Shown piece after piece: positions 10,011 through 42,838 of a DNA stretch of 45,042 nt. Below the pieces are notes generated by a model. The model did not search any database, was not told the origin of the DNA, and saw only the letters and a program-made list of their open reading frames with translations. Each line of letters begins with the position of its first letter. The first letter of the stretch is position 1. A program made the translations under genes and the position numbers. This DNA comes from Clostridiales bacterium GWF2_38_85 (GTDB taxonomy: Bacteria > Bacillota > Clostridia > Oscillospirales > CAG-382). The stretch is from contig MGOY01000002.1 of assembly GCA_001797275.1 (NCBI GenBank), positions 1 to 45,042 of the forward strand, in the 5' to 3' direction.

Positions 10011-10943
10011 TTATAACATAACGTTGTCATTCGTCGAAAATGTTTTAATATATGTGCCTAAGTTTTCAAAGAATTGTATATTTAAGTTATAAATAACTTT
10101 TCGTCCTTCATTGCGAATTGTTACTATATTAGCCTGCTGCATTAAATCTAAATGATAGAAAATAGAAGCTAATTTTTTATCAAATGCTTTTGCAATTTCA
10201 GTTGTATTCATTTCTCCTTTTTCTTTTAATAAATTTAAAATATTTATACGCAATTCATCACTTAAAACTTTAGTTATAAAATTAAAATCAAAATTTTTAG
10301 GACTATTAATATTGTTTAATTGATCCTCACCTATTATTATATAAGAAATATTATTTAAATAATTAATTGATAAAATTTCTTTATTTACTAATGAAATATA
10401 GTAATATATTTCATTATAATTTGCTTTATTAATATAAAAATCTATATTTTCTTGCAATTTGTTTTCTAAAAGGGTAGTGTATTCAAAATTACTATTATAA
10501 TATTGTTCGAATTTCTTATTTAAAATAATTAATTCATCTATAAGAAGATTCTTATATTGGTTTCTATTAAAGCTAAAATCAATTAGTTTTAGTTTTATTT
10601 GATCTGGTATTATTAGTTTATTAATGATACTAAATATATTATTTATAGATATTGAATTATAATCGATATTATCATTTGAATAAAATTTTAATAATATTTC
10701 AAATAAATCATTGTTTTTGATTTTTTCTGAAATATACTCAAAATTAACAAAATTATTACCGATTATAAGATTATCTAAAAAAGAAATGTCATATTTATTA
10801 GGATAAAAGAACATCCAAAGATCTTTATTTATAGTAATATTAATATTGCAATTATTACTATAATTATTATTATTATTTACAAAGTTATTTTTACAATAAA
10901 ACAAAATATCATAAATATAGTCCTTAATTCTGATATATTTCAT
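10011..10943 (-). CDS. Winged-helix (ArsR-like) regulator with a large N-terminal domain
   Basis: 310 aa. The C-terminal 90 residues carry an ArsR-type winged helix: VLSDELRINILNLLKEKGE, then a helix-turn-helix (TTEIAKAFDKKLASIFYHLDLM), then a wing (VTIRNEGRKVIYNL). The N-terminal 215 residues are Asn/Ile/Tyr-rich and unrecognised. The same architecture occurs in the 350-aa regulator at 18698-19750, so they are probable paralogues. The gene diverges from a set that includes a PqqD-like protein, which it probably controls. The ribosome site is aaaggag. No metal-binding Cys set is visible, so the signal is unknown. Confidence 0.75.
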   Translation of the reverse strand: MKYIRIKDYIYDILFYCKNNFVNNNNNYSNNCNINITINKDLWMFFYPNKYDISFLDNLIIGNNFVNFEYISEKIKNNDLFEILLKFYSNDNIDYNSISINNIFSIINKLIIPDQIKLKLIDFSFNRNQYKNLLIDELIILNKKFEQYYNSNFEYTTLLENKLQENIDFYINKANYNEIYYYISLVNKEILSINYLNNISYIIIGEDQLNNINSPKNFDFNFITKVLSDELRINILNLLKEKGEMNTTEIAKAFDKKLASIFYHLDLMQQANIVTIRNEGRKVIYNLNIQFFENLGTYIKTFSTNDNVML

Positions 10944-11041
10944 ATATAACTCCTTTACTGTTTAAATTGATAATTGTAATTTATTATAACATATTTGAAA
11001 TAAAAAGTATAGTATTTATTTCAAATTAGATGGTGATTTAA

Positions 11042-11497
11042 ATGATTTCATTAGAAAAAATATATATAGAAATTGAAACAAAAAAGCTGTTTGATGTTAA
11101 ACAGCAAAAAAAGGTTCTAAATAATAACTATTTATTAATGAAAAAAAATAATAAATATGACTTTTTTTTATACTCTGATATAAAGAAGGATATTTCGTTA
11201 GCATTAATTAGTATATTCAATAAATTTCAAATTTCAATATATGCTGATGATTGGGATAGTTCAAGTGAACCTAAGTTATACACCTCACTTTTAATAGTAG
11301 CTAATGATAGTAAACATGAAATACTTAATGATGAAAGTTTTAAAAGCAAAAAGTGTTATATATTAATAAATTATAAAAAATATTATTATCCATATATTAC
11401 AATGGAATTAAATAATAATTACTACGATTTAAGAATTGTTTTTGAATTTAATAAAAGTAAAACACTAAAAGAATGGTTAAATGATAATGATATATAA
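11042..11497 (+). CDS. Hypothetical protein, 151 aa
   Basis: Not recognised. It starts at ATG 11042 after a weak ggtgat site and is soluble with no signal peptide. It is Lys/Asn/Tyr-rich, with a short acidic stretch (YADDWDSSSEP) near residue 74. It is the first gene diverging from the winged-helix regulator, and its end overlaps the start of the next small gene, so they are likely co-translated. Confidence 0.55.
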   Translation: MISLEKIYIEIETKKLFDVKQQKKVLNNNYLLMKKNNKYDFFLYSDIKKDISLALISIFNKFQISIYADDWDSSSEPKLYTSLLIVANDSKHEILNDESFKSKKCYILINYKKYYYPYITMELNNNYYDLRIVFEFNKSKTLKEWLNDNDI

Positions 11498-11660
11498 GAG
11501 TGAAGATAGATGTATAATGTGTGGTAAGATTATCCCTGAAGGAAGATATTGTTGTAAAATATGTGAGATAGAAGTGCAAGATAATAAACATAAAATAGAA
11601 AAAACCATAAAAAATCAATATATAGGATTATCAAACAATTATTGCTTTATAGATAAATGA
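11481..11660 (+). CDS. Small zinc-ribbon-like protein, 59 aa
   Basis: The ATG at 11481 (or 11487) lies inside the end of the 151-aa gene. The product has a four-cysteine pattern, CIMCGKIIPEGRYCCKICE (C-x2-C then C-x2-C), like small clostridial zinc-ribbon proteins, followed by a Lys-rich helix. The Cys spacing argues for a real gene. The role is unknown; a metal-stabilised adaptor is a guess. Confidence 0.6.
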   Translation: MIMIYKSEDRCIMCGKIIPEGRYCCKICEIEVQDNKHKIEKTIKNQYIGLSNNYCFIDK

Positions 11661-11745
11661 TGTAAATTTATATAGAAAAATCTTATTTTTTATTTTAATC
11701 ATAGTATACTGATAAATACAAAATTTAGTTAAGGGAAGTATAATC

Positions 11746-12033
11746 GTGAAGTTAAACAAAAATAGCAATTTAACCTATATTAAATCATCAGGATGTGAAT
11801 TAATAATATTTGATAAACAAAATAACACAACTCATATAGTAGATAAATTCGGTATTGAATTATTAAAGTTTATTGATAATAAAAATTTAGATATAAACGA
11901 ATTAATTGAAACTATGAAAAACAGATATCCATCAAATGAATGTATAAATGAAATTAGAAATTATATAAATATGTTATTGAAAAAAGAAATATTAGTTTAT
12001 GATGATGTTATAAATAATACTTTTATTTTATAA
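11746..12033 (+). CDS. PqqD-like peptide-binding protein
   Basis: 95 aa, starting with GTG at 11746 behind aagggaag. The pattern of early beta strands (GCELIIFDKQNNTTHIVDKFG), then IELLKFID and a helical VNELI..-type half ending in short strands, matches the PqqD/RRE fold that holds RiPP leader peptides. A second PqqD-like protein lies at 21155-21418. No radical SAM gene is nearby, so it is either orphaned or serves the enzymes encoded at 18-25 kb. A candidate -10 (tatact, 11705-11710) precedes it. Confidence 0.65.
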   Translation: MKLNKNSNLTYIKSSGCELIIFDKQNNTTHIVDKFGIELLKFIDNKNLDINELIETMKNRYPSNECINEIRNYINMLLKKEILVYDDVINNTFIL

Positions 12034-12089
12034 GGACATATATTACAAAAATAGTAGTTGATTACGATTTACATGAAATATTATTTATT

Positions 12090-12674
12090 ATGAAAATATT
12101 TGAGAAATATATAATAGCATTAACTAATTTAAATGGTATTATACCAATTAAAAAAGTCGTAGAGGTATATAATATTCATTATAATCAATACATTGATATA
12201 GAGAAAATTAAATTATATATCAATATTGATTTAAAACAAAATAATATTTATATATGTAAAAATTATTTTGTACATAAGATAATATTAGTATGCGATGATT
12301 ATGAAGTATATATGAGAAAAAAAAGGGATAAACCTTATTATACACCTAATATAAAAAAACTTCTGAAATTTTATGATATTTACTATTTTGAAAAATCAAA
12401 TCAATACTATAAATTATACAATTATATGTACAATATATGCCATAATAGTGAAATAGTAGAAAAAATAATAAAAGATTTTACAATTCTATATAAGTATATA
12501 AATGATCAAATTGAAATATATCGAATTATTAATATGTTAGGTATTTATTTAGAGGATAAAAAGAAACTTGATGAAGTAATGTATATCTTTAATCAATATA
12601 AAAATACTATTAGATTATGGGAAAATAATGGATTTACAAAATACGAAGATTGTGTCGCTCCTTGTATTAAATAA
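12090..12674 (+). CDS. Hypothetical protein, probably 3'-truncated
   Basis: 194 aa from ATG 12090, which lacks a good ribosome site. The frame stays open upstream to 12042 (ATT), where taagga sits at normal distance, so the true start may be 16 codons earlier with a rare codon. It is Tyr/Lys/Ile-rich, soluble and not recognised. The last ten residues (about 12645 onward) are encoded antisense to a subtilase remnant, so the native C-terminus seems to have been replaced by a rearrangement. Confidence 0.5.
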   Translation: MKIFEKYIIALTNLNGIIPIKKVVEVYNIHYNQYIDIEKIKLYINIDLKQNNIYICKNYFVHKIILVCDDYEVYMRKKRDKPYYTPNIKKLLKFYDIYYFEKSNQYYKLYNYMYNICHNSEIVEKIIKDFTILYKYINDQIEIYRIINMLGIYLEDKKKLDEVMYIFNQYKNTIRLWENNGFTKYEDCVAPCIK

Positions 12675-13209: not shown

Positions 13210-14425
13210 TTAAATATAAATCACTTTTTTCATATCGTTTGTTGATGGAAAACATGTGTGGTTTTTACAAATATAAAATGTTGTCATATCATTAAGCAGT
13301 TTATATTCATCTGTCGGTTGAGTGAGAATAATAATATTTGTACCAAATCTCGTTTTACCTTTAATTTTTTCGATATCTGAATACTCCTTTAACACACAAA
13401 CAATATTTTCTTTTGGGTTTTGGTATTTAGACAAAGCTAATAGATAGAAGCTATATCCCGCAGGATAAACTTTTGCTTGTGATGACATGAATTTTAATTG
13501 TTCTATTGCTTTGTCAACATAATTGTTATCATCGGCTAAACTGGATAAGTGGATTAAGTTATATGCCATAAAAGAATTACCGCTTGGAATGGCTCCATCA
13601 TAGGTGTCTTTCGGCTTTAAAATCAATTGTTCGTTATTGTTACCATACAGAAAGAAACCGCTATTTTCGTTGTCATAAAACTCTGATATTGTTATATCAC
13701 AGAGCTGCTTTGCTTTTTCGAGATACTTTGTATCAAGTGTTGTATCATACATATTGATTAAGGCAAATATATAAAATGCATAATCATCAAGAAACCCTGC
13801 ACCCGATTTAACTCCATTTCTGAAGCTGACGAATAAATTGTTATTTGAACACAGATTCTCTTCGATAAAATCAACAGCTTTCTTAGCAATTTGAAGATAC
13901 ATGTCATTTTGTGTTATGCGATACAGCATAGAGAATGCAGCTATCATCAATGAGTTCCAAGATGTCAGTTGTTTATCGTCAAGATGAAGTGTTGTTCGTG
14001 TCTTACGATACTCATAGAGTATATTTAAGCTGTTATTATATTTGTCATCAATTAATGAACCCCTCAATAAATTAGGAATATTCTTTCCTTCAAAATTTCC
14101 TTGCATAGTTATGTCATAATAGTCATCAAACTCTTTACCGACATCGCCAAGGAGCTTAATTGTTTCATTGTAATTGAAAACGTAGTATTTACCTTCAACT
14201 CCATCGCTGTCTGCATCTTGTGCAGAATAGAAACCACCATTTAATGAGGTCATCTCACGTATTATATATTTTGCTATCTTTTCCACTTATCGCTTATTGT
14301 TTGCAGTAATTCGCGAAAACTTATCATACCATATCGAGCAGTCTTCGGGAAGTATGTGCCTGCATAAAACGGTTTTTGATCAGGTGTCATAAAAATGCTT
14401 GTCGGCCAGCCGCCTTCAGCGGTGC
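13210..14425 (-). pseudogene. DUF255/YyaL-type protein with internal deletion
   Basis: Intact members have a thioredoxin-like N-terminal domain followed by an (alpha/alpha)6 domain and exceed 600 aa. Here the minus strand first gives a piece of the N-terminal domain (GGWPTSIFMTP, PFYAGTYFPK, RELLQTI..KW, about 14425-14289) ending in TAG. The frame then changes and the second domain runs from 14286 to 13210 (GGFYSAQDADSDGVEGKYYVF, YDGAIPSGNS). The residues normally linking these pieces, roughly 150-200, are missing, as is the extreme N-terminus. A shortened 358-aa product from a GTG could be made but is unlikely to work. Confidence 0.8.
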
Positions 14426-15077: not shown

Positions 15078-15326
15078 ATGATTTTTCAAATACTAAGTAA
15101 TACAATGGATTATGAATACAGACTTATGGAAACTCATAAAATTTTTGATGAAAATATCGAAAAAATTGTATACGGTATTGAAATCAAGTGGGGTAGCAAT
15201 ATCAAGCAAGTTGAAGATATATCAACAAATAAAGAACAGGTATTAATTTTACTTGAAAAATGTAAATATAATTTATGTTCTCCATATCATATTGAAGAAA
15301 TTATTGAGGATTTTATTTTATTTTAG
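15078..15326 (+). CDS. DUF6514-like small protein
   Basis: 82 aa, ATG 15078 behind gagg at slightly long spacing. The pattern YRLMETHK...VYGIEIKW....VEDIST..EQVLILLEKC...LCSPYHIEEIIEDFI matches my memory of the small clostridial DUF6514 family (function unknown). It ends 15 nt before the hydrolase gene and is probably co-transcribed with it. Confidence 0.6.
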   Translation: MIFQILSNTMDYEYRLMETHKIFDENIEKIVYGIEIKWGSNIKQVEDISTNKEQVLILLEKCKYNLCSPYHIEEIIEDFILF

Positions 15327-15341
15327 AAAATAGGAGTATAT

Positions 15342-17804
15342 ATGTTATCATCTGATTTTATGATCATCTCCCCCAGCACTGAATGGGATATTGAGTTTTT
15401 TCGACCTAATAAAGAGTACAGTCCATTTGACATTGCTTATAATGTTGTTGCTCATAACGAATATATTAATAATTACATTTCAAGTAATAACTCAAAAATT
15501 TATATAAATGAAAAATTAATGTTAAGTAGTTATAAAGGGGGAAGTGATACTTGGCAACGTTGTTTTAAAGCTGTCGAATGTAATTGTGATGAAGTTGCAA
15601 ATATAATCATATATACTTATGAAGCTATACGACTCTGGGTAAATGGAGTACTGGTCTATAATTATCGGTTGTTATATCCATGTAATCTTAAAATTCAATT
15701 AAATAAAGGGATTAATATTTTTTGCCTTGAGTTTTATAGCGGAAAAAGTGAACAAGCGTTTGAAATTCATATTTGTGCTGAAACAGAAAATTTTAATAAT
15801 TCATCATTATCTTTATTTGTTAAAAACAATTATTTAATCGATAATCATAATTGTATTCTTACAGATAAAAATTTAACTTACTCTTATATTGATGAAGATG
15901 AATATATGTTTATATTATCTTGCTGTGATACATCATTGGTGACAGTTTCAAAAGAATACACTTTAGATATTTATGCAAAATATAATCCCGATAACGGTAT
16001 TTATAATGATTATGATACTACAAAAAGTTTATATACATATCAAGGGAAATTCGGTCATATAGAAAAAGTAGATTTGAATTCATTAAGAAACAGCCTGCCG
16101 AATGATGTATATGCCGTACAACTTAGTTTTAGATATACACATAACAAAAAAACTGTTTATTTTAAAAGAGATATAACAATAAAAAACTTTCAAAATTATT
16201 TAAATCAAATATCTAAAATTGTTGGCGAAATGATAGAAAATGAGTCATTAAGCGTATTTGATAAATGGTATTTTGAATACTATTTTGATAAAATTCCTTT
16301 GAGCTTTTGGTATGCTGATATGTGTTCAATACTTATTAAATTAAAAAATCAAGGAATGAATATTGAACTGGAATATAAGGAAAATATTATTCAGAATAAA
16401 AAGAGATTGGTGTTTAAATCAAAACTAGATAGACAATATGAATATATAGAATATGTATTACCTGTAAATTATAATTCATCAAGCAAATATCCGTTATTAA
16501 TTATTTGCTCTGCATATTATCACGATTTCCATTCTCATGAGTTTTATGATCAAAATGAATATATTGTTGCAGATATATCTGGAAGAGGCATATTGACAGG
16601 TAGCTATATAGATGAAGTTCAATTCTTTGAAAGTCTGGAATATATATTATCAATGTGTTCTGTTAACCTTGATAAAATATTCTTAACCGGTTTTTCAAAC
16701 GGTGCATATACTGCATGGACTCTAGCTCAAAATTATCCTGATAGGTTTGCAGGTATTCTGCTTGGATCAGGAACCCCAGATATAGATAAACTAAAAAATT
16801 TGTGCAATATGAAAGTTATAACGCTTTCCTCAAAAGAAGATAAATTATATAAACATACTTACGAAATACCAATTCAGACATTAAATCAATATGGTAATAT
16901 CAACGGTTATATAATAAGTTCTTTATCTCATTCTCAGCTATATTTATGTATCTTCAATAAAGTAATTATAAACGACTTATTTTCTTTCTCGAATAAAAAA
17001 AATAAGGACCAAGTTTTATTTTTAACAAGAGATATAAATCATAATAAAATAGATGATTTAATAATTGAAGAAATTGATAAGAGAAATAATTATGCTGCTG
17101 TACAAATTAAGAGAACACATAAACAGGTAAATATCAATACAATTGGAGTTAAACAAATTTCTTATTATAATGCTTTTGATGATAAATTAATCATAAACAA
17201 AAAAGAAATAAAGACGGAGTCAAAATTAAACTTTTATAAAATATTAGATGATATTGAGGTTAACAAATCATCTTTTATTAAGAATAATTTTACTGGTTTA
17301 GGTTGGGCTCAAGTATATTTAGGCCCATTAGTTGTATGTTGTAATGAAAAATCTATTGTTAATAGTTTAGCGAATTCATTTGCAAAACCATATTCAATGG
17401 GTTATGATACAAATCTAAATGTAAAATATCCGATATTAAAAAATATAAGTAATAACAACACTAACATAATATATATTGATTTTAGAGGAGATAATTATGA
17501 GTACGAAAAAGTGAAAGATATATTTCCAATAAAGTGTTTGGCAGATAGTTTTATCTATATGAATCATGTATATAATTGTGATTATAGCATTATTCAGATT
17601 ATTAAATATCATCACGATAATTATTATGTTTCTGTAACAAGCAACAATGAATCACATTTTAAAAAAAATATTGTTTTTCGCAAGGTTATCCTATCAAGCT
17701 ATACAAACGGATTCAACCCCTACCTAAACTGCGAATCACTCATATTTATGAATGATAAATATTATATGATTAAGTATTATGGGGATGAATTAATAGAGAT
17801 ATAA
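15342..17804 (+). CDS. Large cytosolic serine hydrolase (prolyl-oligopeptidase/esterase-like)
   Basis: 820 aa with no signal peptide or membrane segment. Residues about 1-165 are predicted beta-rich (SDTWQR.F, IRLWVNGVLVY), like a carbohydrate-binding or jelly-roll module. An alpha/beta hydrolase domain spans about 360-560. Its nucleophile motif GFSNGAY puts Ser at 452, and Asp500 (SKEDK) and His530 (SLSHSQ) complete a triad in the right order and spacing. The last 250 residues are unrecognised. The combination resembles S9 peptidases and esterases. Its place 2 kb from the peptide locus allows a role in processing or degrading that peptide, but this is inference from position. Confidence 0.7.
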   Translation: MLSSDFMIISPSTEWDIEFFRPNKEYSPFDIAYNVVAHNEYINNYISSNNSKIYINEKLMLSSYKGGSDTWQRCFKAVECNCDEVANIIIYTYEAIRLWVNGVLVYNYRLLYPCNLKIQLNKGINIFCLEFYSGKSEQAFEIHICAETENFNNSSLSLFVKNNYLIDNHNCILTDKNLTYSYIDEDEYMFILSCCDTSLVTVSKEYTLDIYAKYNPDNGIYNDYDTTKSLYTYQGKFGHIEKVDLNSLRNSLPNDVYAVQLSFRYTHNKKTVYFKRDITIKNFQNYLNQISKIVGEMIENESLSVFDKWYFEYYFDKIPLSFWYADMCSILIKLKNQGMNIELEYKENIIQNKKRLVFKSKLDRQYEYIEYVLPVNYNSSSKYPLLIICSAYYHDFHSHEFYDQNEYIVADISGRGILTGSYIDEVQFFESLEYILSMCSVNLDKIFLTGFSNGAYTAWTLAQNYPDRFAGILLGSGTPDIDKLKNLCNMKVITLSSKEDKLYKHTYEIPIQTLNQYGNINGYIISSLSHSQLYLCIFNKVIINDLFSFSNKKNKDQVLFLTRDINHNKIDDLIIEEIDKRNNYAAVQIKRTHKQVNINTIGVKQISYYNAFDDKLIINKKEIKTESKLNFYKILDDIEVNKSSFIKNNFTGLGWAQVYLGPLVVCCNEKSIVNSLANSFAKPYSMGYDTNLNVKYPILKNISNNNTNIIYIDFRGDNYEYEKVKDIFPIKCLADSFIYMNHVYNCDYSIIQIIKYHHDNYYVSVTSNNESHFKKNIVFRKVILSSYTNGFNPYLNCESLIFMNDKYYMIKYYGDELIEI

Positions 17805-18503: not shown

Positions 18504-18671
18504 TTACCTAAACATGAATGGATCCTCAGGAATTGAACTTGTTTGAGAAATAAGACTACCACATGGAGTCCAATCTGAACATGCGTTAATCAAAATTTCT
18601 TTTCTTAATTCATCAGCTTTAATTGTCTTAATAATTGGCTTTCTCCATACAAGGCGATAAGTTTTTTCCAT
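18504..18671 (-). CDS. Candidate RiPP precursor peptide, 55 aa
   Basis: The start at 18671 follows AGAAAGGA; a longer in-frame form lacks such a site. The N-terminal half is a charged helix-like leader (RKPIIKTIKADELRKEIL) ending near INA. The C-terminal half looks like a core, CSDWTPCGSLISQTSSIPED then PFMFR, with two Cys five residues apart and five Ser/two Thr. It lies 26 nt behind the winged-helix regulator and diverges from an operon with PqqD-like and radical SAM/SPASM genes, the usual partners of such peptides. The class cannot be assigned: there is no lanthipeptide synthetase or lasso cyclase here. Cys thioether or other radical chemistry is possible. Confidence 0.65.
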   Translation of the reverse strand: MEKTYRLVWRKPIIKTIKADELRKEILINACSDWTPCGSLISQTSSIPEDPFMFR

Positions 18672-18697
18672 GTTGTCGCATCCTTTCTGAAATAAAA

Positions 18698-19750
18698 TCA
18701 AGAATCTTGTAGCTTGTTAAAAAACTCATTGATAGATATTATGGCAATCTTTATATATGGTATATTTAAAATATAATATAATTGCACATTTTCCTGCTTG
18801 CTTATTTTTATAATTTGATTTGTATAGAGTAAATGCAGATGTCTTTGCATTGTTGTCGTCGAAACATATAACAACCTGGATAATTGGCTTAATGTTAATT
18901 CCCCGTTTTTATCTAGTGCTTCAATTATATCTATTCTTAATGGGTCTGAAAATAAAGGCATTACATTTCTGATATCAATTATATTATTTAACTTTTTGTA
19001 TTGTATGTTTTCTTGATGTTTAATTCCGAGTAATAAAAATAACTCGTTGGTATTTTTCTTCTGATATTCAAAAAATATATATCGATTTAATAAGGAAATT
19101 GTAATTATTGATTTTTTAATTTTAGATTCGTCTATTTTCCATATGTCGCTATATAATTTCAAGGTGTTTTTGGTCTTTGAATTATTAAAAATTGATTTAA
19201 TAATTTTTGAATATTTAATATGTAGTTTATTTATAACAGAATAAATATTAATCAAATTATTTTCTAGTAGTTTTATAATATATTCGAAATTGGTTAAGGT
19301 GAACATTAACTTATATTTTATATCAACCGTATAATCTATATTATCTATCGATTTGTGAATGAATCTGATATCATTTTCTATAATTTCAAAATCTATTTCA
19401 ATTAAAGAATTTTTCAATACATAAATATAAAACGACTTTTTAAATTGTTTATCTTTTATAAAAGTTAATAATACATCTAAACTTGAAATTTCATAATAAT
19501 TCTTAATAAATATATCAATAAAAAATGGAATTGTCTCACCATCATAAAAAAAGAATGGTGTTATGTATTCAGAAAGTTCGACAATGTCATTTTTTATTTC
19601 GTCAAAATATTCAAAAGCACTTTCTAAAGTTTCTATTTTATGGATAATTTTCTTTTCTAATATTGATCTATTAAAATATATAACACCGTAATAAAGAGTG
19701 TCGAATATCTCCCCAATACTACTGTTATATGTCAATTCATTTACCTCCAT
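18698..19750 (-). CDS. Winged-helix regulator of the peptide locus
   Basis: 350 aa, with aatggaggtaa around the start. The C-terminal winged helix reads MPLFSDPLRIDIIEALDKNGE, LSQLSRLLYVSTTTMQRHLHLL, then a wing. The N-terminal 260 residues are Ile/Asn/Lys-rich and predicted helical, with no named domain. The layout is the same as the 310-aa protein at 10011-10943. It is the first gene of the precursor transcript and diverges from the biosynthetic operon, with 168 bp between them. This suits a regulator controlling both directions, perhaps sensing the product or a peptide through its large domain. Confidence 0.75.
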   Translation of the reverse strand: MEVNELTYNSSIGEIFDTLYYGVIYFNRSILEKKIIHKIETLESAFEYFDEIKNDIVELSEYITPFFFYDGETIPFFIDIFIKNYYEISSLDVLLTFIKDKQFKKSFYIYVLKNSLIEIDFEIIENDIRFIHKSIDNIDYTVDIKYKLMFTLTNFEYIIKLLENNLINIYSVINKLHIKYSKIIKSIFNNSKTKNTLKLYSDIWKIDESKIKKSIITISLLNRYIFFEYQKKNTNELFLLLGIKHQENIQYKKLNNIIDIRNVMPLFSDPLRIDIIEALDKNGELTLSQLSRLLYVSTTTMQRHLHLLYTNQIIKISKQENVQLYYILNIPYIKIAIISINEFFNKLQDS

Positions 19751-19918
19751 TAAATAACATTATATTTTAATTTAACAATATAATATCATAGAAAAATATA
19801 TATTGCAAGAGGTAAATGAAATAAATTAAGGGAAAATATCAAAATAAAGCGAAAATGTATTGATTTCTTATCTATCTTTATGTATAATTTATATAAAATA
19901 TATTTGGGATGGTAATAT

Positions 19919-20722
19919 ATGATCCAATACATTGTACGTCCGTTTCAAAATAATGATATTATGATAAAAACAGATGATCCTACAATAGTTGAAACATTAA
20001 AGATTGCGTATGGATGTTATGTAGTTGATTTCACAGAAAAGGAATGCATCCAAATATTTATAATAAAAACAAAAAAAATGATGTACGAGATATATTGTGA
20101 TAATAAAAAAACGGTAACAGAAACACCTTTACAATTAATTGAAAATATGATATTTGACACAACCTTTTATTATGAAAATATATTTGCATTACATGCAGGA
20201 GCTGTTTCTGTTAAAGATAATACCTTAATTTTTATTGCCCCAACAGGTGGCGGTAAAACAACTCTCATATCATATTTAAGCATTCAAGGATTTGAATATG
20301 TAACAGATGATTGCGTGTTTATTGATATGAATAATAATAATGTTTATCCATATCATAAGCCGATCCATTTAAGAAAAGGGGGTTATAATATTATAAAAAA
20401 TCATTTGTATGACTTAGATGAAATCCATGAGATATATAATGACGGAAACAAAAGGTATGTTTATTCACCTTCTCGATTCTCTAAAAACAATCTAAGACTA
20501 AACAAGATTTTTTTCATTGAAAGAAATGAAAAAATTAATGAGTTGTGCAATATGACAACCAATGAAGCAATTCAAAAATTAATGGCTAGTACAATTACAT
20601 CATATTCGATAAAAAAAGAATACTTAAAATTTTTAAGTATCATTGCAAGAGAATGTAGGATTTTAAAGTACAAGGATTTGGATTATGTTTATGATATATT
20701 AGAATATAGAAGGTATATATGA
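19919..20722 (+). CDS. HPr-kinase-like ATPase
   Basis: 267 aa, the first gene of the seven-gene operon, behind gggatgg. The core has ALHAGAVSVKDN, a P-loop at about 107-114 (APTGGGKT) and YVTDDCVFID, the signature of HprK/P-like proteins found in RiPP loci. The N-terminal HprK sensor domain is absent, as usual for these versions. In the paeninodin lasso cluster a homologue phosphorylates the precursor's C-terminal residue; here the substrate is unknown. Its stop overlaps the next ATG (ATGA). Confidence 0.75.
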   Translation: MIQYIVRPFQNNDIMIKTDDPTIVETLKIAYGCYVVDFTEKECIQIFIIKTKKMMYEIYCDNKKTVTETPLQLIENMIFDTTFYYENIFALHAGAVSVKDNTLIFIAPTGGGKTTLISYLSIQGFEYVTDDCVFIDMNNNNVYPYHKPIHLRKGGYNIIKNHLYDLDEIHEIYNDGNKRYVYSPSRFSKNNLRLNKIFFIERNEKINELCNMTTNEAIQKLMASTITSYSIKKEYLKFLSIIARECRILKYKDLDYVYDILEYRRYI

Positions 20723-21177
20723 CTACTGAAATTAAAGCAACAATTTTAAAAATGATGCTAAGAAAAAATTATTGTGTTGAGATGAGCGTGACAGGTAATA
20801 GTATGTACCCGCAACTTAAAGAAGGCGATTCTATTTTTCTGAGACCTTCATGTGAATATACAATTGGTGATATTATCGTATTTATATATAAAAATGATTT
20901 ATTAATACATAGGCTTATAAAAATAAAAGATGATATATACTATTGTAAAGGAGATAGCAGCTTTAGGTTAGAGGATATAAAAAAAGAGGATATAATTGGA
21001 TCGGTTCAAAATATGTCTAGTATAGATAACAAATTTATAGAAATGTCTTTAAGTGTTAACGAAGAATTCGTTAGTAATGGTTATGAAATTGAAGCAACTA
21101 AAGCCAGCGATATTTATCTTAAGTATAAAAATCAATATTTGGAGGGTGTTACATATGTTAATAATGAAAAACGATAG
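20719..21177 (+). CDS. Soluble S24/S26-like peptidase
   Basis: 152 aa. GNSMYPQLKEGDSIF carries the nucleophile Ser28, followed by GDIIVF, IHRLIKI and KGDSS boxes. His64 in IHRL occupies the position of the catalytic His in Sec11/SipW-type signal peptidases, and Lys68 is nearby. There is no transmembrane segment, so it would act in the cytoplasm and not on exported pre-proteins. Such small peptidases recur beside PqqD, HprK-like and nucleotidyltransferase genes. Leader removal is a plausible but unproven role. Confidence 0.7.
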   Translation: MTTEIKATILKMMLRKNYCVEMSVTGNSMYPQLKEGDSIFLRPSCEYTIGDIIVFIYKNDLLIHRLIKIKDDIYYCKGDSSFRLEDIKKEDIIGSVQNMSSIDNKFIEMSLSVNEEFVSNGYEIEATKASDIYLKYKNQYLEGVTYVNNEKR

Positions 21178-21418
21178 TTTTGATTTCATGGATGTTGATC
21201 CTGGCAACTTAGTCATATTTGATCCTGATGTTGGAGATACTCACTTTATTGAAGAAATTGGTATAGATATATTAAATCAAATAGATGGTGAAACAGATAT
21301 TGATGATTTAATAAATAGTTTATCTACGATTTATGATGTTGATATAGAAGTTATAAAGAAGGATGTTTATGATTTTATCAATGAACTTATTGATAAAAAA
21401 GTAATTATACAATTATGA
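21155..21418 (+). CDS. PqqD-like leader-binding protein
   Basis: 87 aa. The start at 21155 is set by GGAGGG (21141-21146); it overlaps the peptidase end by 23 nt. The pattern MDVDPGNLVIFDPDVGDTHFIEEIG, then a helical half (ILNQIDGETDIDDLINSLSTIYDV...) ending in VIIQL, matches the PqqD/RRE winged fold, which binds RiPP leaders and delivers them to radical SAM enzymes. It overlaps the radical SAM start by 4 nt. Confidence 0.8.
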   Translation: MLIMKNDSFDFMDVDPGNLVIFDPDVGDTHFIEEIGIDILNQIDGETDIDDLINSLSTIYDVDIEVIKKDVYDFINELIDKKVIIQL

Positions 21419-22452
21419 AGCCAAATATTATTGCATCATATATAGAAATAACTAATAAATGTAATTTAAATTGTATCACTTGTTATAATAGATCGGGTAT
21501 GAATACCTCACAACAAGAAATTACATTTGAACAACTAAAAATTATTATTAAGCAACTTAATGCTTATGGCTGTAAACGTTTTAGTATTTCAGGAGGAGAG
21601 CCATGCTTACACAGTGAATTTCTGAAGATATTAGACTATATAAAATGCACTCCTCAATATAAATTTGATATAGTAACAAATGGGACGATATTTAATAATA
21701 ATTTAATTGATTTATTTATCTCAAGTTCAAATTTATCTATTCAAATAAGTTTAGACGGATCATGCGAAAAAATTAATTCTGTTATCCGTGGCAAAGGAAA
21801 TTTTGCTAAGTCAGAAAAGCTTTTTAGAGCATTAAATGTTACCGGTAGAAAACCACATGTAAAAATGGTAATTTCAAAGCTAAATATTAATGATGTCGAG
21901 AATTTCTTTGATTATATATGCAACAATGGAGGTATCCCAGAATTTTCATTTATAAATAGAAGTGGAAACGCGGATAATGAATGGGAAAATAAAGTTATAA
22001 CAGCAAATGAGAAGCTTAATATTCTAAAATTAATCAATGAATTAAATATAAAATATAGCATCTCAGCAATTCTACCCTTATGCACCAATGAATGTCCACT
22101 TGATAAACAAGATTCACCGCTTAACATTGCAATAAAAACAGATGGTACAATAATTCCTTGTCAGCTGCTTTATTCAAATAAGTTTAAATTAAGTAATATA
22201 TTCGACTTTAATGAAACAGAGTTTTTGGATAATTACTCTCATATAAGTAAAATGGTTCAAATACGCAAGGAAACAAATTATGGTTGTTGTAAATGCATAC
22301 TTAAAGATGTATGTCAGAAAGGCTGTATGGCAATGGCTGAGTATTTTTCTGGTTATCCTTTGGGGACTGACGGAGAATGCAAGTACAGAAAATTACAATT
22401 CATTGGGTTTCAGCTTGACAAAATAATAAAAGAAAGAGTTGTATTAAAATGA
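21415..22452 (+). CDS. Radical SAM/SPASM peptide-modifying enzyme
   Basis: 345 aa. The radical SAM cluster motif is C16-x3-C20-x2-C23 (CNLNCITC), followed by the GGE-type motif ISGGEPCLH near residue 61 and QISLDGS. The C-terminal 90 residues have many Cys (LCTNEC, IIPCQLL, GCCKCILKDVCQKGC, GECKYR), fitting a SPASM or twitch domain with auxiliary clusters. Such enzymes form thioether or carbon-carbon crosslinks in peptides. The precursor at 18504-18671 is the obvious local substrate. Stop and next start overlap as ATGA. Confidence 0.85.
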   Translation: MKPNIIASYIEITNKCNLNCITCYNRSGMNTSQQEITFEQLKIIIKQLNAYGCKRFSISGGEPCLHSEFLKILDYIKCTPQYKFDIVTNGTIFNNNLIDLFISSSNLSIQISLDGSCEKINSVIRGKGNFAKSEKLFRALNVTGRKPHVKMVISKLNINDVENFFDYICNNGGIPEFSFINRSGNADNEWENKVITANEKLNILKLINELNIKYSISAILPLCTNECPLDKQDSPLNIAIKTDGTIIPCQLLYSNKFKLSNIFDFNETEFLDNYSHISKMVQIRKETNYGCCKCILKDVCQKGCMAMAEYFSGYPLGTDGECKYRKLQFIGFQLDKIIKERVVLK

Positions 22453-22697
22453 TAGAAAAAAACATCAGAGAAATTTTAACACAGCTTTTAAAAATTGATG
22501 TAATTATTATAAGAAGTGATGATTTGCTTTCTGAACATGATCTCGATTCAATTTTATTCATTAAGTTTATAATATTACTTGAAGAAAAGTTTCGTATTGT
22601 TATTCGTGACAGTGATTTAATACATAAAAATTTTAAAACGATAAATATGTGTATATCAACGATCTCTAAATATATAGAAGTAGATTGCTATGAATAA
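22449..22697 (+). CDS. Acyl carrier protein
   Basis: 82 aa. EHDLDSILFIKFIILLEEKF contains the DS site where phosphopantetheine attaches (Ser at about residue 34), in the right helix context. It overlaps both neighbours by 4-8 nt. With the FkbH-like gene next to it, it probably carries a glyceryl or similar acyl group. An ACP inside a radical SAM/PqqD peptide operon is unusual. Confidence 0.8.
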   Translation: MIEKNIREILTQLLKIDVIIIRSDDLLSEHDLDSILFIKFIILLEEKFRIVIRDSDLIHKNFKTINMCISTISKYIEVDCYE

Positions 22698-24339
22698 AGA
22701 CATTAAGTATAGTGATATCCTTGCATATATTAAAAATGTTAACACAGAAAATAAAGAAATTCAGGTGATAAGTAATTATACATTATCACCTATATTTGAT
22801 GATTATTTTAAGTTTTATAATAGCAAATATAATATTAAAATAATTGAATATAGTAATTATATGTCTTCTACGCTTTCAGGAAATCTTGTTTTTATTATAA
22901 TAAAATTAGAAGAATTATTCCCAAAATTATTTGATAATATTTACGAAGTGATAATTGAAGACGAAATAAAAATTATATATAACACAATAGACAGTATTAT
23001 AAAAAAAGCTGAAGATGAATTTAGTTGTGTATTTATATGTGATTTTGAATATGACTTTTTTGAGCCGGAACCAAAAGGGATTACCACAAAAAATTATATA
23101 ATAAAAAAAGCAAATGAATATTTACATAAGATATCTGACAAATATATAAATTTATATCTTATTAATATAAATAAAATTATTGCTCGTATAGGAGCTGATA
23201 ATTTCTACAACGATAGAACATATTATATGGCGAAAATACCATATTCGATACTTGGATATAATGCACTTGCTTACGATTGTGCTAAAATTGTAAACGCACA
23301 AAATATTCAAAGAAAAAAGTGCTTAATTCTTGACTGTGATAATGTGTTATGGGGAGGAATTGTAGCAGAAGATGGTATTAATAATATACGACTTTCCAGG
23401 AGCTTTATTGGCAGTGCATATAGAAATTTTCAAAAAGAAATAATTAGGTTATATCATTCGGGCATCATCATTTGTTTGTGTAGCAAGAATGATGAAAAAA
23501 CAATATGGGATGTTTTTGATAATCATCCAGACATGCTGTTAAACAAAAAACATATTTCCTCTTTTCGTATTAATAATCGAGATAAAGCAAATAACATTCG
23601 TGAAATAATTGAAGAGTTAAATATATCAAAAAATAGTGTGGTTTTTATAGATGATGATCCATATGAAACACAACTAGCTAAATCTATGATACCTGATATT
23701 GAAACAATAACCTTGAATAACGAACAACCTAACTCATACGTTAAATTTATAAAGAGTTGTAAGTTTTTCGATTCATTAGAAATTACTCAGCAAGACAGAT
23801 TAAGGGGAGAATCATATAAGTTTGAAGGTATACGAAAAATTGAATTGAAAGAAAATTATGATATTGAACAATATCATAAATCGTTAAAAACAAAAATTGA
23901 GATAATAAGTGCTGATAATTATGCTATTTCACGTATTGCTGAGCTTTCTCAAAGAACAAGTCAATTTAATTTATCTAATAAACGATATTCTATTGAGGAA
24001 TTGATTGAACTCAAAAATTCACCAACATATGAAATTCTATATTTAAAAGCAAGCGATATTTATGGAGATATGGGTATTATCACTGCTTGTGTTATAAAAT
24101 ATAATAATACTTGTTTATTAATAGAATCTTTCTTTTTGTCATGTAGAGTTTTTGGACGTAATTTCGAATTATTATTACTTGACAAAGTTAAAGATATTGC
24201 TTTTAAAAAAGGTATTACTGATATAATCGGGATTTACATAGAAACGGAAAAAAATAAAAAGTTCAATACATTTTATAAAATTAATGGAGTAAATACAGAT
24301 GGAATATTCAGAAATAATTTCATCAATACAACAAATTGA
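22690..24339 (+). CDS. FkbH-like HAD-family enzyme
   Basis: 549 aa. The C-terminal two-thirds match FkbH proteins: a HAD motif with D215 and D217 (LDCDNVLWGGIVAEDG), LCSKNDE, VFIDDDPYE, and a GNAT-like end with RTSQFNLS and SCRVFGRNFE. FkbH family members take a three-carbon unit from 1,3-bisphosphoglycerate, dephosphorylate it and load it onto an ACP, which is encoded just upstream. The N-terminal 200 residues (FEPEPKG, AKIPYS near the end) fit the SGNH-like part seen in longer family members. I infer it charges the local ACP. Which acceptor receives the group is unknown; the modified peptide is one option. Confidence 0.8.
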   Translation: MNKDIKYSDILAYIKNVNTENKEIQVISNYTLSPIFDDYFKFYNSKYNIKIIEYSNYMSSTLSGNLVFIIIKLEELFPKLFDNIYEVIIEDEIKIIYNTIDSIIKKAEDEFSCVFICDFEYDFFEPEPKGITTKNYIIKKANEYLHKISDKYINLYLININKIIARIGADNFYNDRTYYMAKIPYSILGYNALAYDCAKIVNAQNIQRKKCLILDCDNVLWGGIVAEDGINNIRLSRSFIGSAYRNFQKEIIRLYHSGIIICLCSKNDEKTIWDVFDNHPDMLLNKKHISSFRINNRDKANNIREIIEELNISKNSVVFIDDDPYETQLAKSMIPDIETITLNNEQPNSYVKFIKSCKFFDSLEITQQDRLRGESYKFEGIRKIELKENYDIEQYHKSLKTKIEIISADNYAISRIAELSQRTSQFNLSNKRYSIEELIELKNSPTYEILYLKASDIYGDMGIITACVIKYNNTCLLIESFFLSCRVFGRNFELLLLDKVKDIAFKKGITDIIGIYIETEKNKKFNTFYKINGVNTDGIFRNNFINTTN

Positions 24340-25345
24340 TAATAATATCGAACCTAAAATAAACATCTCAAAATTACTACTGGAACATGATTGTTTGTAC
24401 TTATTAACACGTATAAATAAAAATGATGATTATATTGAAAGCGCCAAAATAAAAATAATATCAAATTTGTTAATATCTAAAATATGTCATCATGCATGTC
24501 TCAATGTTTTCAATGAATTATCTTCGATTCCATATGCAGTAATAAAAGGAGCAGTTTTATCTAAAACTATTTATGACCGATTTGGCCTTCGATCATCAGG
24601 AGATATCGATATTTTGGTTTCAAAAGATAATATAGATACAATTAAAGAAATTCTACACGAAAATGGGTTTATTCAAGGAAAGATAATTAGTAACGAAATT
24701 GTCCCCTATACTAGAAAGGAATTAATATTTCAAGCAGTTAATAGTCATCAAATTGCGCCTTTTATGAAATACACTAACAATTCATTATATCCATTTGTCA
24801 ACATAGATATAAATATAGATATAATGTGGGGTGAAAATGATAATAAGGCTAATATAGATTATGTGCTAAATTATATTGTTGATGATCATATATGGAATTG
24901 TAATATAAAAAAGTTAATATCTGAAATAGAATTCATAACTTTATGTTTACATAATTATAAAGATTTAAATTCTATATACTTATTATCTCAAAGAGGTATA
25001 AAATTAAGATTATTTTGCGATATATATTACTATATTAAACATAATAAACTTGATATTAATAAACTCAAACAATTATCTGAAACACTTTGCGTTTCTGAAT
25101 ATATATATTATTGCCTATATTATACAAATATTATTTTCAATAACGATAAATTAATAGATTTGATAAAATGCTTTAAAAAAGATGATGAATTAATAAAGTC
25201 ATTTGGGTTATCTAAAAGCGAAAGAAAAGAATGGAAAATAGAATTTTATGATCGTATTTTCGATAAAGAATTTAACGAAAGATTTTATTCATTTTTATCA
25301 AAAGATGATATTATAAAGATAGAAAAAAACAAATATTTTATGTAA
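24299..25345 (+). CDS. Nucleotidyltransferase-fold protein (NTP_transf_5-like)
   Basis: 348 aa, overlapping the FkbH gene by 41 nt with GGAG in place. AVIKGAVLSKTIYDRFGLRSSGDIDILV has the GDxD catalytic pair (D102, D104), and HNYKDLNSI plus LRLFCDIYYYI are typical downstream features of this family. Homologues accompany HprK-like and PqqD genes in lasso and other RiPP loci, where their reaction is not settled. It could add or remove a nucleotide on the peptide or on a phosphorylated residue. It is the last gene of the operon. Confidence 0.75.
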   Translation: MEYSEIISSIQQIDNNIEPKINISKLLLEHDCLYLLTRINKNDDYIESAKIKIISNLLISKICHHACLNVFNELSSIPYAVIKGAVLSKTIYDRFGLRSSGDIDILVSKDNIDTIKEILHENGFIQGKIISNEIVPYTRKELIFQAVNSHQIAPFMKYTNNSLYPFVNIDINIDIMWGENDNKANIDYVLNYIVDDHIWNCNIKKLISEIEFITLCLHNYKDLNSIYLLSQRGIKLRLFCDIYYYIKHNKLDINKLKQLSETLCVSEYIYYCLYYTNIIFNNDKLIDLIKCFKKDDELIKSFGLSKSERKEWKIEFYDRIFDKEFNERFYSFLSKDDIIKIEKNKYFM

Positions 25346-31896: not shown

Positions 31897-33612
31897 TTAT
31901 GTCTCTCTCATTGAAATAAATGATTGTAATAGATTCAATCTTCCATAACCCCATTGTAGATTAGGATATATTGTTTCTGGCGAACGAGAACATCCCCTGA
32001 TAAGGTAAGCTTTAATCTGATATGTACTGAGTGCAATATCATTTTTTTCAATAATCCCCCATTGCATCATGAGTGCACACGCTCCGGAAGTTATTGCAGT
32101 GGAAACACTAGTACCATTCATTGTCCCATATCCTTCAGGATAAACACCACCTATATCAACACCGGGAGCTACAAAATCAGGCGCCATCATGGGAAGCCTT
32201 GTTGGTCCCCATGATGTTTGAGAATAAAGACTATTATCAAACGAATTATATGATCCGCAAGAAATCGGCCCTAGAGCTGTGCTGGGTATTACAACTGTTG
32301 TATAAGGATTTGGTAATAAAAATTCGACATTTGGTGAAATAAAACCTGTTATTGGTAACCATGCATGATATTCACCATTTAAAATAATATCCCCTCGTAC
32401 AATTATATTCCATATACCACGAGTTGCATTAATTAATTTTATTACCGTCCTTTGACTTCCACTACCTCTGCTTGGAAAGTAGTATTCAACAATAACCGTT
32501 GCTTTCTCAAAAACAAGCTTTGCTTCAAATTTGACACCTGATTTTGCTGGTATTCTGGTTATTAATTCACCTGTCGGAGATCGTATAGCCACTGAAATTC
32601 TATCAGAAGCATTATTCCACATTGATATATAAATATCACTTGCATTATCACCAACTCTTAGTTCAACATTCTGTTCCTCACCTTGCTTAATCATTTTTCC
32701 AAAGAAATGGTGCTTTGCCTGACTTTCGTTACCAACGGATGTGCAAATACAAATACCTGTTAATTTACTAATATCACTCAAGTAATCTTCAAATAACGAA
32801 TAGCCGTCATGACTGCCAAAACTCGTACCAATTCCTAGACATATGACTGCAGGACGACCAAGTTCCTCCGATTTTTTTACTATGTATTCAATCCCTACCA
32901 TTACTGCGGATGATTCGTAAGCATTATCTTGCTCAGGAGGAATAAGATATTTTTCTAAATAATATGGTCTTGCTTTTTTTAATTTCACAATAAGTAATTC
33001 AGCGTCAGGTGCAGCACCTATAAAATCATCTACTTCACGTCCTGCTGCAATAGATGCTAAAAAGGTACCATGACCAACTGTATCTTTTTGAGGAACAATT
33101 GAATAAGGATCATCAGACTTTAGGGCTTGATTTATTTGTTCTTGAGTATATTCCGTTCCGAGCATAAATCCATATGGTAATGAATGCCCAAATGTTTGAT
33201 CAAAAATACCTACTATTTTACTTGTACCGTCTTCATATTTAAAAACATCTTTTGTATAATCTATCCCAGTATCAATAATCCCAATTAACACGCCTTGACC
33301 CCGTAGATTTAGAAATGGTTGTTGTATGACTTGAATTATACCGGCTGCTTCAAGAGCTTGATGATCTAAAAGTCCTAATACTGTGGATTCTGCTGCTATA
33401 AAAGCAGATCCTAGTTCCTGACTAACCTTTTCTATTTTTTCTTTGCTTGTATATGCTACTAAATATTCACCGATTAATGAAAATGTTGGATATATATATG
33501 GTTTATCTTTGATGTATTCAAGAAAATATTCGCTATTTTGTACAATAAAATCAACTGTATCCGGAGCTACGAGAAATTCATTAAAAGTATCATATCCATT
33601 ATATGAACTCAT
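31897..33612 (-). CDS. Subtilisin-like serine protease (Csp-type), copy 2
   Basis: 571 aa, with GGAGG upstream. The S8 triad is intact: Asp114 (IIDTGIDYT), His181 (GHGTFLASIAAG) and Ser502 (MNGTSVSTA). Between His and Ser lies the large jelly-roll-like insert typical of clostridial Csp germination proteases. The N-terminal 100 residues look like a prodomain with no export signal. Csp proteases activate cortex hydrolases during spore germination, and related proteins occur elsewhere in clostridia, so the substrate is open. It follows a near-identical copy after a 38-bp gap. Confidence 0.85.
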   Translation of the reverse strand: MSSYNGYDTFNEFLVAPDTVDFIVQNSEYFLEYIKDKPYIYPTFSLIGEYLVAYTSKEKIEKVSQELGSAFIAAESTVLGLLDHQALEAAGIIQVIQQPFLNLRGQGVLIGIIDTGIDYTKDVFKYEDGTSKIVGIFDQTFGHSLPYGFMLGTEYTQEQINQALKSDDPYSIVPQKDTVGHGTFLASIAAGREVDDFIGAAPDAELLIVKLKKARPYYLEKYLIPPEQDNAYESSAVMVGIEYIVKKSEELGRPAVICLGIGTSFGSHDGYSLFEDYLSDISKLTGICICTSVGNESQAKHHFFGKMIKQGEEQNVELRVGDNASDIYISMWNNASDRISVAIRSPTGELITRIPAKSGVKFEAKLVFEKATVIVEYYFPSRGSGSQRTVIKLINATRGIWNIIVRGDIILNGEYHAWLPITGFISPNVEFLLPNPYTTVVIPSTALGPISCGSYNSFDNSLYSQTSWGPTRLPMMAPDFVAPGVDIGGVYPEGYGTMNGTSVSTAITSGACALMMQWGIIEKNDIALSTYQIKAYLIRGCSRSPETIYPNLQWGYGRLNLLQSFISMRET

Positions 33613-33650
33613 TTATTTAATGTACCTCCCATATAATTTTAGTTTCATTA

Positions 33651-37169: not shown

Positions 37170-37188
37170 CAATTTCACCCTCCCAGCA

Positions 37189-37536
37189 TTATTGTAATTT
37201 TTCTTCTAATTTATTTAACTTTTCAAGCAGCAGTTTATTTTGTTCCTGCAACTGCTTTGTCTGCAATTCCTCTTCTCTTTTTAGAGCTTCCTTTTTCTCC
37301 TGCTCTTCTTTAGCTTTACTCGATAAATTTGGATCTGTTTTCCACCAATCAATACCCATTTCTTCTGCTTTATCAATCGATGCAATCACTAATCTGATTT
37401 TTATTGTTAACAGCTCAACATCCGCTAATGCAATACTTATATCACCGGCAATTACTACGCCTTTATCAAGTACTTTTTCTAAAATCTCTCCCAGACTTGA
37501 GCCTGAAGTAGATTGATTCAATGAACTCGAACCCAT
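37189..37536 (-). CDS. gvpJ: GvpJ-type minor gas vesicle protein
   Basis: 115 aa, behind AGGAGG. A GvpA-like core (LGEILEKVLDKGVVIAGDISIALADVELLTIKIRLVIAS) is followed by WWKTDP and a long charged coiled coil (about 80-115). GvpJ/M/S homologues of GvpA are minor components that seed or cap the vesicle. The coiled-coil tail is longer than in GvpA. Confidence 0.85.
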   Translation of the reverse strand: MGSSSLNQSTSGSSLGEILEKVLDKGVVIAGDISIALADVELLTIKIRLVIASIDKAEEMGIDWWKTDPNLSSKAKEEQEKKEALKREEELQTKQLQEQNKLLLEKLNKLEEKLQ

Positions 37537-37571
37537 ATAATACCTCCTGAAGTTTACAATGTTTTTATTTA

Positions 37572-38812: not shown

Positions 38813-38844
38813 ATTGACCTCCCCAATAAAAATTAAAGAATTAT

Positions 38845-39072: not shown

Positions 39073-39076
39073 ATGT

Positions 39077-39844: not shown

Positions 39845-39848
39845 ATAA

Positions 39849-41954: not shown

Positions 41955-41986
41955 CAATGAATCACTCCGATAATTGAAAAGATATT

Positions 41987-42481: not shown

Positions 42482-42494
42482 ATTATTTCACCTT

Positions 42495-42755: not shown

Positions 42756-42838
42756 AAGCACACTCCGTTTCTGATCTTATATTCGTAAGTCTAAATATAT
42801 TTATATTCACTAAGCTCATAATATATTATTAAATTTAT

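Follow-up and report, generated by a model that had tools for sequence, protein, structure and literature searches.

A probable ribosomal peptide operon with a proposed acyl carrier protein branch

In a 45,042-nucleotide stretch of Clostridiales bacterium GWF2_38_85 (contig MGOY01000002.1 of assembly GCA_001797275.1), hereafter the window, a seven-gene operon on the forward strand (19919-25345) lies next to a short peptide gene and its regulator on the opposite strand. We consider it rather likely that this locus makes a ribosomally synthesized and post-translationally modified peptide (RiPP) belonging to a family not yet described, and that its pathway includes a branch dependent on an acyl carrier protein (ACP). 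At the level of genes the case is strong, since gene content, synteny, the precursor family, catalytic motifs, a separate FkbH clade, co-occurrence among loci and predicted folds were all observed. As the original prediction had stated, the genes overlap at their ends and combine a kinase, a protease, a PqqD-type protein, a radical SAM enzyme, an ACP, an FkbH-type enzyme and a nucleotidyltransferase-fold protein (Table 1); six of these families scored over curated cut-offs, and the kinase was recognized from a weaker match together with its motifs.

The PqqD-type protein reached 50.1 bits (curated cut-off, 23.4), and its ATG start codon at 21155 is found nine bases past a GGAGG sequence (21141-21145). 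In many relatives, this protein and the protease are a single fused protein. As a separate observation, the more distant loci L089 to L093 encode a fused protease some 710 residues long, with NTP_transf similarity in two of them. The Radical_SAM domain scored 75.8 bits (cut-off, 29.5), and the cysteines of its CX3CX2C motif and of its C-terminal cluster motifs were invariant in all 10 aligned sequences; we take the C-terminal pattern to be that of a SPASM domain. Among the best 25 of 66 NCBIfam matches, this enzyme reached no curated maturase cut-off, the best model being the mycofactocin maturase TIGR03962 (121 bits; cut-off, 265). The protease matched Peptidase_S24 with 39.3 bits (cut-off, 23.3) and TIGR02228 with 45.7 bits, under the cut-off of 51.85. 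Its catalytic Ser, Met and His were kept in 17 of 17 aligned relatives, no obvious transmembrane stretch was seen by eye, and it is probably the leader peptidase.

The ACP (PP-binding, 32.5 bits; cut-off, 20.8) retains its pantetheine serine in 19/19 sequences, and the FkbH-type enzyme (TIGR01686, 251.2 bits; cut-off, 146.65) retains its HAD and cysteine motifs in 18/18 aligned sequences. In the kinase, the P-loop Gly-Lys-Thr and Asp131 were present in all 18 aligned sequences and Asp130 in 17 of them. The last protein of the operon matched NTP_transf_5 with 92.1 bits (cut-off, 31.2). Its predicted structure, with a mean predicted local distance difference test score (pLDDT) of 93.1, was closest among solved structures to MenT1 (Z score, 12.1), TglT (10.3), ANT(2'')-Ia (10.1) and LnuA (8.4), middling values that are consistent with the family name. 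A short form of this protein accompanies FkbH in relatives, often adjoining it, and the FkbH-free loci L064, L079, L082 and L084 carry a longer NTP_transf-family protein, as judged by a family scan of the L064 copy.

Relatives of the locus

Searching 99 genomes, the window's own included, with the radical SAM enzyme yielded two strong relatives, in G008 (43 percent) and G097 (40 percent), most other matches being remote. A class-wide sample of 391 genomes, again including the window's own, added seven genomes at an E value of 1e-30 or better, and named genomes were then scanned with ten of these radical SAM enzymes, aligned, of which the best 80 of 191 loci were kept. Loci L063 to L093 were separated from the remote radical SAM loci by E value; the window together with L063 to L084 constitutes the window's clade (23 loci), and L085 to L093 an outer clade. 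Because L075/L077 and L067/L069 are near-copies, and L080, L081 and L082 are stretches identical to those of G008, G112 and G097, the number 23 overstates the independent cases. The same gene set was found in many separate assemblies, and many carriers come from animal guts according to their record titles. One scan of viral contigs with a single query sequence gave no relative of the radical SAM enzyme. One carrier, L067, is labelled Opitutales (Verrucomicrobiota), yet its radical SAM and FkbH proteins closely resemble their counterparts in L069, from Clostridia, so that it represents either a mis-binned contig or a recent transfer.

The precursor peptide family

The 55-residue open reading frame (ORF) beside the regulator gene gave no Pfam or NCBIfam match, and its ATG is preceded by AAAGGATG, a good ribosome-binding site. 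The encoded peptide has a W-R-K-P motif in its leader and a core of the form S-DWTP-C-...-FMFR. A precursor model made from eight seed peptides was run on 9863 small ORFs, which placed a precursor within the locus in 18 of the 23 clade members; a nineteenth, that of L072, is encoded on a separate contig of the same genome (L153), giving 19/23. The expectation that a short peptide gene would stand beside the regulator was borne out: of the 18 clade loci that have a precursor gene of their own, 17 (hand count; the exception being L080) place it directly downstream of a gene from the window regulator's family. The short ORF, which has homologues in this position, is therefore more than a chance ORF.

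We tabulated 28 peptides as read from the DNA, namely, 19 from the clade, 1 from L094 and 8 from the outer clade, counting once those of loci fetched twice (e.g., L023 and L082). All 28 have a serine exactly 23 residues past the leader tryptophan, followed downstream by a cysteine; among other small ORFs with a W-x-x-P motif on the same contigs, only 7 of 53 have a serine at W+23. The W-x-x-P motif itself is partly due to the way in which the peptides were chosen. A C-terminal arginine ends 18/19 clade peptides, versus 0/8 in the outer clade. A set of 20 cores, which includes the L094 peptide although its radical SAM enzyme is remote (it was left out of the arginine count), showed throughout one fixed serine and then one cysteine (two in L082) at variable spacing, with cores of about 9 to 15 residues in most relatives. 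Three weak matches with tyrosine in place of the leader tryptophan, in L094 (9342-9536), L038 (8428-8637) and L143 (11653-11787), were kept out of the 28 peptides; the serine lies at +23 in two and at +22 in the third. Two precursor types occur in L090, L091 and L092, whose cores end, for example, in DICVSFH or RVARIF. The outlying precursors of L088 and L143 match the PadeA model weakly, with 18.1 and 14.7 bits (cut-off, 27).

Many leaders finish with an A-x-A-like sequence immediately before the fixed serine, and such ends are favoured by signal-peptidase-type enzymes. L084 has a different leader end and no S24 gene was seen there, which fits a link between leader end and protease; L078, in which A-Y-A is kept, does not, as no S24 gene was seen on its short contig. 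The link is therefore only a hint. Overall, a short encoded precursor with a conserved leader and a variable core lies beside modifying enzymes, and judging from these sequence features the 55-residue ORF very probably encodes a RiPP precursor.

The ACP-FkbH module

Of the 23 clade loci, 16 have an ACP-FkbH pair no farther than about 6 kb from the radical SAM gene. The original prediction was to fail if homologous loci lacked this pair or never had a short peptide gene, and the two values, 16/23 and 19/23, support both the RiPP reading and its link to FkbH. Moreover, in the genomes of L072, L074 and L078 a different contig encodes an FkbH that belongs to this clade; that of the L078 genome (L150) falls on a long branch, and that of the L072 genome is accompanied by genes for a regulator, an ACP, a BtrH-like protein and a precursor peptide. 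No FkbH was present on the stretches examined of the outer clade, and the genome of L088 has a remote FkbH outside the RiPP clade.

In the FkbH tree, 21 rows (18 from loci and 3 off-locus) formed one clade (support, 100/98), separate from 10 FkbH proteins of other contexts and from 2 further off-locus ones. Mechanically called ORFs in 12 loci join ACP and FkbH as one protein of 391 to 445 residues, a length that leaves no room for the usual N-terminal domain, and the unfused FkbH of the window is sister to these 12 fused proteins (support, 100/97). Plasmid records gave 69 FkbH matches, all below 60 percent identity, with a maximum of 34.5 percent among the best 20 of the 69. A glyceryl-loading precedent for FkbH is given in PMC7489565, and by analogy the unit loaded onto the ACP is probably glyceryl.

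FkbH proteins of the window's clade are also carried by two other kinds of cluster. L038 with L144 (G310:C3) is a larger hybrid cluster with HprK, PqqD, radical SAM, YcaO, S24, NTP_transf_5, ACP-FkbH and BtrH-like genes, in addition to extra ACP-like and adenylation-like genes (several of these names were given by eye). L143 with L057 (G813:C6) is a different RiPP-like cluster with a B12-binding radical SAM enzyme, an M16 peptidase, HprK, S24, NTP_transf, ACP, FkbH, AcpS and a BtrH-like protein; by eye, a MetK-like gene lies near its ACP and FkbH genes, and its short ORF at 11653-11787 is cysteine rich. In L081, a second, apparently incomplete FkbH and NTP_transf pair (15103-16862, reverse strand) was seen near the intact cluster.

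BtrH-like proteins in relatives

An iterated profile search of 1730 ORFs, drawn from 98 stretches that represent 96 distinct places, identified 17 ORFs of a BtrH_N-like family. By hand count, 11 of 21 places with an FkbH of the RiPP clade encode BtrH-like proteins, against 0 of 75 places without one, a group made up of loci lacking FkbH, loci whose FkbH is of another type and remote radical SAM loci; in this comparison the places include related loci and the profile seeds all came from FkbH places. The original prediction had not foreseen this association. The L076 copy exceeded the Pfam BtrH_N cut-off (36.5 against 29.7 bits), and the other scanned copies were below it or unmatched. In loci of the L077 type, a single locus combines the precursor, S24-PqqD, radical SAM, HprK, NTP_transf, ACP-FkbH and BtrH-like genes.

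The model of the L070 copy (pLDDT, 76.8) was nearest to CcbD (Z score, 16.6 over 297 residues; root mean square deviation, 4.3), AziU3/U2 (16.1) and CtaG (15.0), with a C39-like and a helical domain matching along most of the chain; the next family reached a Z score of 10.7 and covered residues 1 to 174 only. Foldseek also placed CcbD, AziU3/U2 and CtaG first (E values, 7.7e-8 to 1.6e-4). In an alignment inspected by eye, the catalytic histidine is nearly invariant. According to its entry titles, the CcbD structure was solved with the peptidyl carrier protein domain of CcbZ, and PMC6772006 proposes that CtaG moves an acyl group from a carrier protein. The locus in question shares with these systems the predicted fold, in relatives, and a nearby carrier protein; it differs in its RiPP-type partner genes, in the apparent loss of the catalytic cysteine from several copies and in the lack of any such gene detected in the window's genome. 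As a side observation in the L074 genome, a gene for a 2344-residue protein with RHS repeats and a pretoxin-HINT domain (L154, 223-7257, reverse strand) adjoins BtrH-like and FkbH genes.

Comparison with known systems

The lasso peptide clusters of pseudomycoidin and paeninodin (PsmK/PadeK, PsmN and a PqqD-like B1 protein) have in common with the window an HprK-like kinase, a nucleotidyltransferase and PqqD-type leader binding; the window operon has radical SAM, ACP and FkbH genes instead of the remainder. With respect to kinase and nucleotidyltransferase tailoring as in pseudomycoidin, both enzymes are present with their active-site motifs, the kinase below curated cut-offs. A lasso peptide was rejected, as no asparagine-synthetase-like cyclase or transglutaminase-like B2 protease matched among the operon proteins (Pfam for all, NCBIfam for all except the NTP_transf_5 protein), and mycofactocin was rejected on the TIGR03962 score given above. 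These outcomes lower those two names only, and serine chemistry tailored by a kinase, as in lasso peptides, may still be used here.

Sactipeptides, ranthipeptides and mycofactocin share with the window a SPASM enzyme, a PqqD protein and a short cysteine-bearing precursor, and the combination that marks the first two, a SPASM radical SAM enzyme with a cysteine-bearing core, is found here. The kinase, the nucleotidyltransferase and the ACP-FkbH pair are extra. FkbH glycerate modules (FK520, tetromadurin) likewise pair an FkbH domain over its cut-off with an ACP, and OzmB is a further example of FkbH-dependent glycerate utilisation. They differ from the window in that here there is no polyketide synthase in the operon, the FkbH proteins form a separate clade and the ACP is fused to FkbH in 12 loci. 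Lipolanthines, goadvionins and selidamides join an acyl group to a ribosomal peptide, as is proposed here, and use fatty or polyketide acyl chains, in contrast to the glycolysis-derived three-carbon unit predicted for this family. A hybrid of a polyketide or fatty acid synthase with a RiPP was rejected, because Pfam detected among the operon proteins no ketosynthase and no fatty-acyl donor with a stand-alone GNAT enzyme.

Proposed pathway and alternative explanations

We infer the chemical steps, their order and the product from these genes. The PqqD protein would bind the W-x-x-P leader and hand the peptide over to the radical SAM/SPASM maturase, whose action would probably link the conserved core cysteine. 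The HprK-like kinase would phosphorylate the serine at W+23, and the NTP_transf_5 enzyme would add a nucleotide or sugar to the phosphate of the phosphoserine. PsmK and PsmN of pseudomycoidin offer the precedent; in PMC9266682, the kinase PsmK phosphorylates a serine, and PsmN installs hexoses on that phosphoserine. By analogy, the fixed serine would be the obvious counterpart of the pseudomycoidin serine. FkbH would take 1,3-bisphosphoglycerate and load a glyceryl unit onto the ACP, and the Ser/His protease would cut after the A-x-A-like leader end, freeing the N-terminal amine. In relatives, at about half of the FkbH places, an enzyme with the BtrH/CcbD/CtaG fold could then transfer the acyl group onto the peptide, with this amine as the simplest acceptor, and ABC transporter pairs would export the product in those loci that have them (8 of the 22 other clade loci). 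A gut-bacterial RiPP that is crosslinked, carries a nucleotide- or sugar-modified phosphoserine and receives an N-glyceryl group from ACP-FkbH through CcbD/CtaG-like transferases is a tentative proposal, possible though short of probable. The earlier suggestion of a peptide both crosslinked and acylated or glycerylated may hold, and the interpretation as a whole is partly supported.

Several observations weigh against this reading. The kinase matched its best model, TIGR04352, with 43.9 bits, far under the cut-off of 200; because of this score, its HprK name is weaker than the other names and rests on the P-loop and DD motifs kept in relatives. The surroundings of the L078 radical SAM gene showed neither an HprK nor an S24 gene. 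FkbH was not detected in the genomes of L064, L079, L082 and L084, whose completeness is not given, and FkbH is therefore not essential to the family. The window's own peptide is atypical, with a 24-residue core, longer than in most relatives, and a second cysteine just before the fixed serine. In L066, L069, L070 and L073, the precursor model and a relaxed motif search returned no precursor, only chance-like ORFs; except in L073, the contig breaks off no more than 1.4 kb from the cluster. Queries for transporters, deacetylase-like, BtrH-like and YcaO proteins had no match in the window. A search of the window's whole genome, run without a positive control, also gave no BtrH-like match, so that no enzyme for acyl transfer was identified in the window. 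As for the BtrH-like proteins of relatives, the Foldseek template modeling scores of the L070 model were only 0.41 to 0.52, and a cysteine near the position of CcbD Cys19 or CtaG Cys11 is, by eye, present in some copies and missing from several, including L070.

The ACP-FkbH pair could be a mere neighbour of the RiPP genes and serve another product, such as a cell-surface glycan or a small molecule. FkbH is indeed found in other contexts, is undetected in four clade genomes, and has no identified acyltransferase beside it in the window. Nevertheless, the window genes overlap, the pair stands near the radical SAM gene in most clade loci, the RiPP FkbH clade is distinct from other FkbH proteins, and the same clade recurs in two more RiPP-like clusters, one with YcaO (L038/L144) and one with another radical SAM enzyme (L057/L143), all of which makes this explanation unlikely. 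If the pair does belong to the pathway, the three-carbon unit might sit on the sugar or nucleotide added to the phosphoserine by NTP_transf_5, rather than directly on the peptide. The pairing of FkbH with the short NTP_transf_5 form, against the longer form of FkbH-free loci, would agree with this, as would the hexoses that PsmN puts on phosphoserine; against it, BtrH/CcbD/CtaG relatives are thought to make amides with amines, and we regard attachment at the sugar or nucleotide as a minority option, worth keeping in mind.

The fixed serine followed by a cysteine at variable spacing in all 20 cores would also suit a lanthionine-like path, in which the serine is phosphorylated, eliminated and attacked by the cysteine, with no radical SAM thioether. 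None of the operon proteins, however, matched a lyase or LanC-like family in Pfam; an ORF outside the operon (13210-14286) matched LANC_like with 17.9 bits (cut-off, 23.2) and glycoside hydrolase models better, and the radical SAM enzyme, which was the search query, keeps its SPASM cysteines. We hold this path to be quite unlikely. Finally, the assembly is a draft of 47 contigs, and a PqqD-like ORF elsewhere in the window (11746-12033) without a precursor suggests that decay can occur; a degraded or chimeric locus without function is nevertheless very improbable, given that none of the seven reading frames is interrupted, that the catalytic motifs scored are conserved and that the gene set recurs in many separate assemblies. 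The preferred reading thus stays that of a RiPP operon with its own ACP-FkbH branch.

Other features of the window

Table 1. Features of the RiPP-type locus and its surroundings, in window coordinates
Feature	Position	Strand	Basis
820-aa protein with a weak alpha/beta-hydrolase (esterase-like) region	15342..17804	+	Pfam/NCBIfam matches all below cut-off
Very probable precursor gene, 55 aa	18504..18671	-	Homologues in related loci; W-to-Ser spacing constant
Regulator, 350 aa, ArsR-like winged helix near C-terminus	18698..19750	-	Pfam/NCBIfam; directly upstream of precursor gene
Divergent intergenic region, regulator/precursor versus modification operon	19751..19918	.	
Putative HprK-like peptide kinase, 267 aa, P-loop GKTTL and DD motif	19919..20722	+	TIGR04352 below cut-off; motifs kept in relatives
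S24/S26-type protease, 152 aa, Ser28-Met and His64	20719..21177	+	Peptidase_S24 over cut-off
PqqD-type leader-binding protein (predicted), 87 aa	21155..21418	+	PqqD over cut-off
Radical SAM/SPASM peptide maturase (predicted), 345 aa	21415..22452	+	Radical_SAM over cut-off
ACP, 82 aa, pantetheine Ser within HDLDSI	22449..22697	+	PP-binding over cut-off
FkbH-type HAD-IIIC protein, predicted glyceryl transferase/phosphatase, 549 aa, DCDNVLWGG and LSCRVFGR	22690..24339	+	TIGR01686 over cut-off
NTP_transf_5 nucleotidyltransferase-fold enzyme, 348 aa, RxSxDxD kept	24299..25345	+	NTP_transf_5 over cut-off

The regulator matched HTH_24 with 23.3 bits (cut-off, 21.9), HTH_20 with 26.5 (27) and NF033788 with 32 (55). 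The 820-residue protein is an uncertain member of the cluster. An ORF beside the L071 cluster (1798-3294), to which a Pfam scan assigned no family, matches it (26 percent, 171 bits). The 820-residue protein was weighed as a possible acyl transferase of the window, with this single match and the sub-cut-off family matches as the evidence. Large ORFs were also seen near L071, L079 and L153.

A second regulator of the same family (reverse strand) lies near the PqqD-like ORF (23.6 bits; cut-off, 23.4) in the region 10011-12674; no precursor was found beside that ORF, and the region is perhaps a decayed sister cluster. Farther along, a gas vesicle cluster (36390-44354, reverse strand) encodes one protein of the Gas_vesicle family (51.2 bits) and three of the GvpL/GvpF type, together with two AAA proteins, one an ATPase that resembles GvpN and the other CDC48-like. 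Two subtilase-family proteases are encoded in tandem at 31897-35357 (reverse strand).

Novelty and significance

RiPPs, FkbH modules and CcbD/CtaG enzymes are each already known. In agreement with the original prediction, which knew of no described class with this gene set, the papers listed in searches of the open-licence literature showed no class that joins FkbH/CcbD-type chemistry with a radical SAM enzyme, a kinase and a nucleotidyltransferase around such a precursor, no report of HprK together with radical SAM in ribosomally synthesized peptides, and no description of a glycolytic intermediate as donor for RiPPs. If the proposal is true, the tailoring of ribosomal peptides would meet here a carrier-protein chemistry that is fed by a glycolytic intermediate. 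The short natural precursors, with a serine in fixed register and a cysteine in the core, would provide a ready panel for probing the kinase, the nucleotidyltransferase, FkbH and the CcbD/CtaG-like enzymes. Moreover, because so many of the record titles point to animal guts, the family may represent an untapped gut pool of modified peptides.

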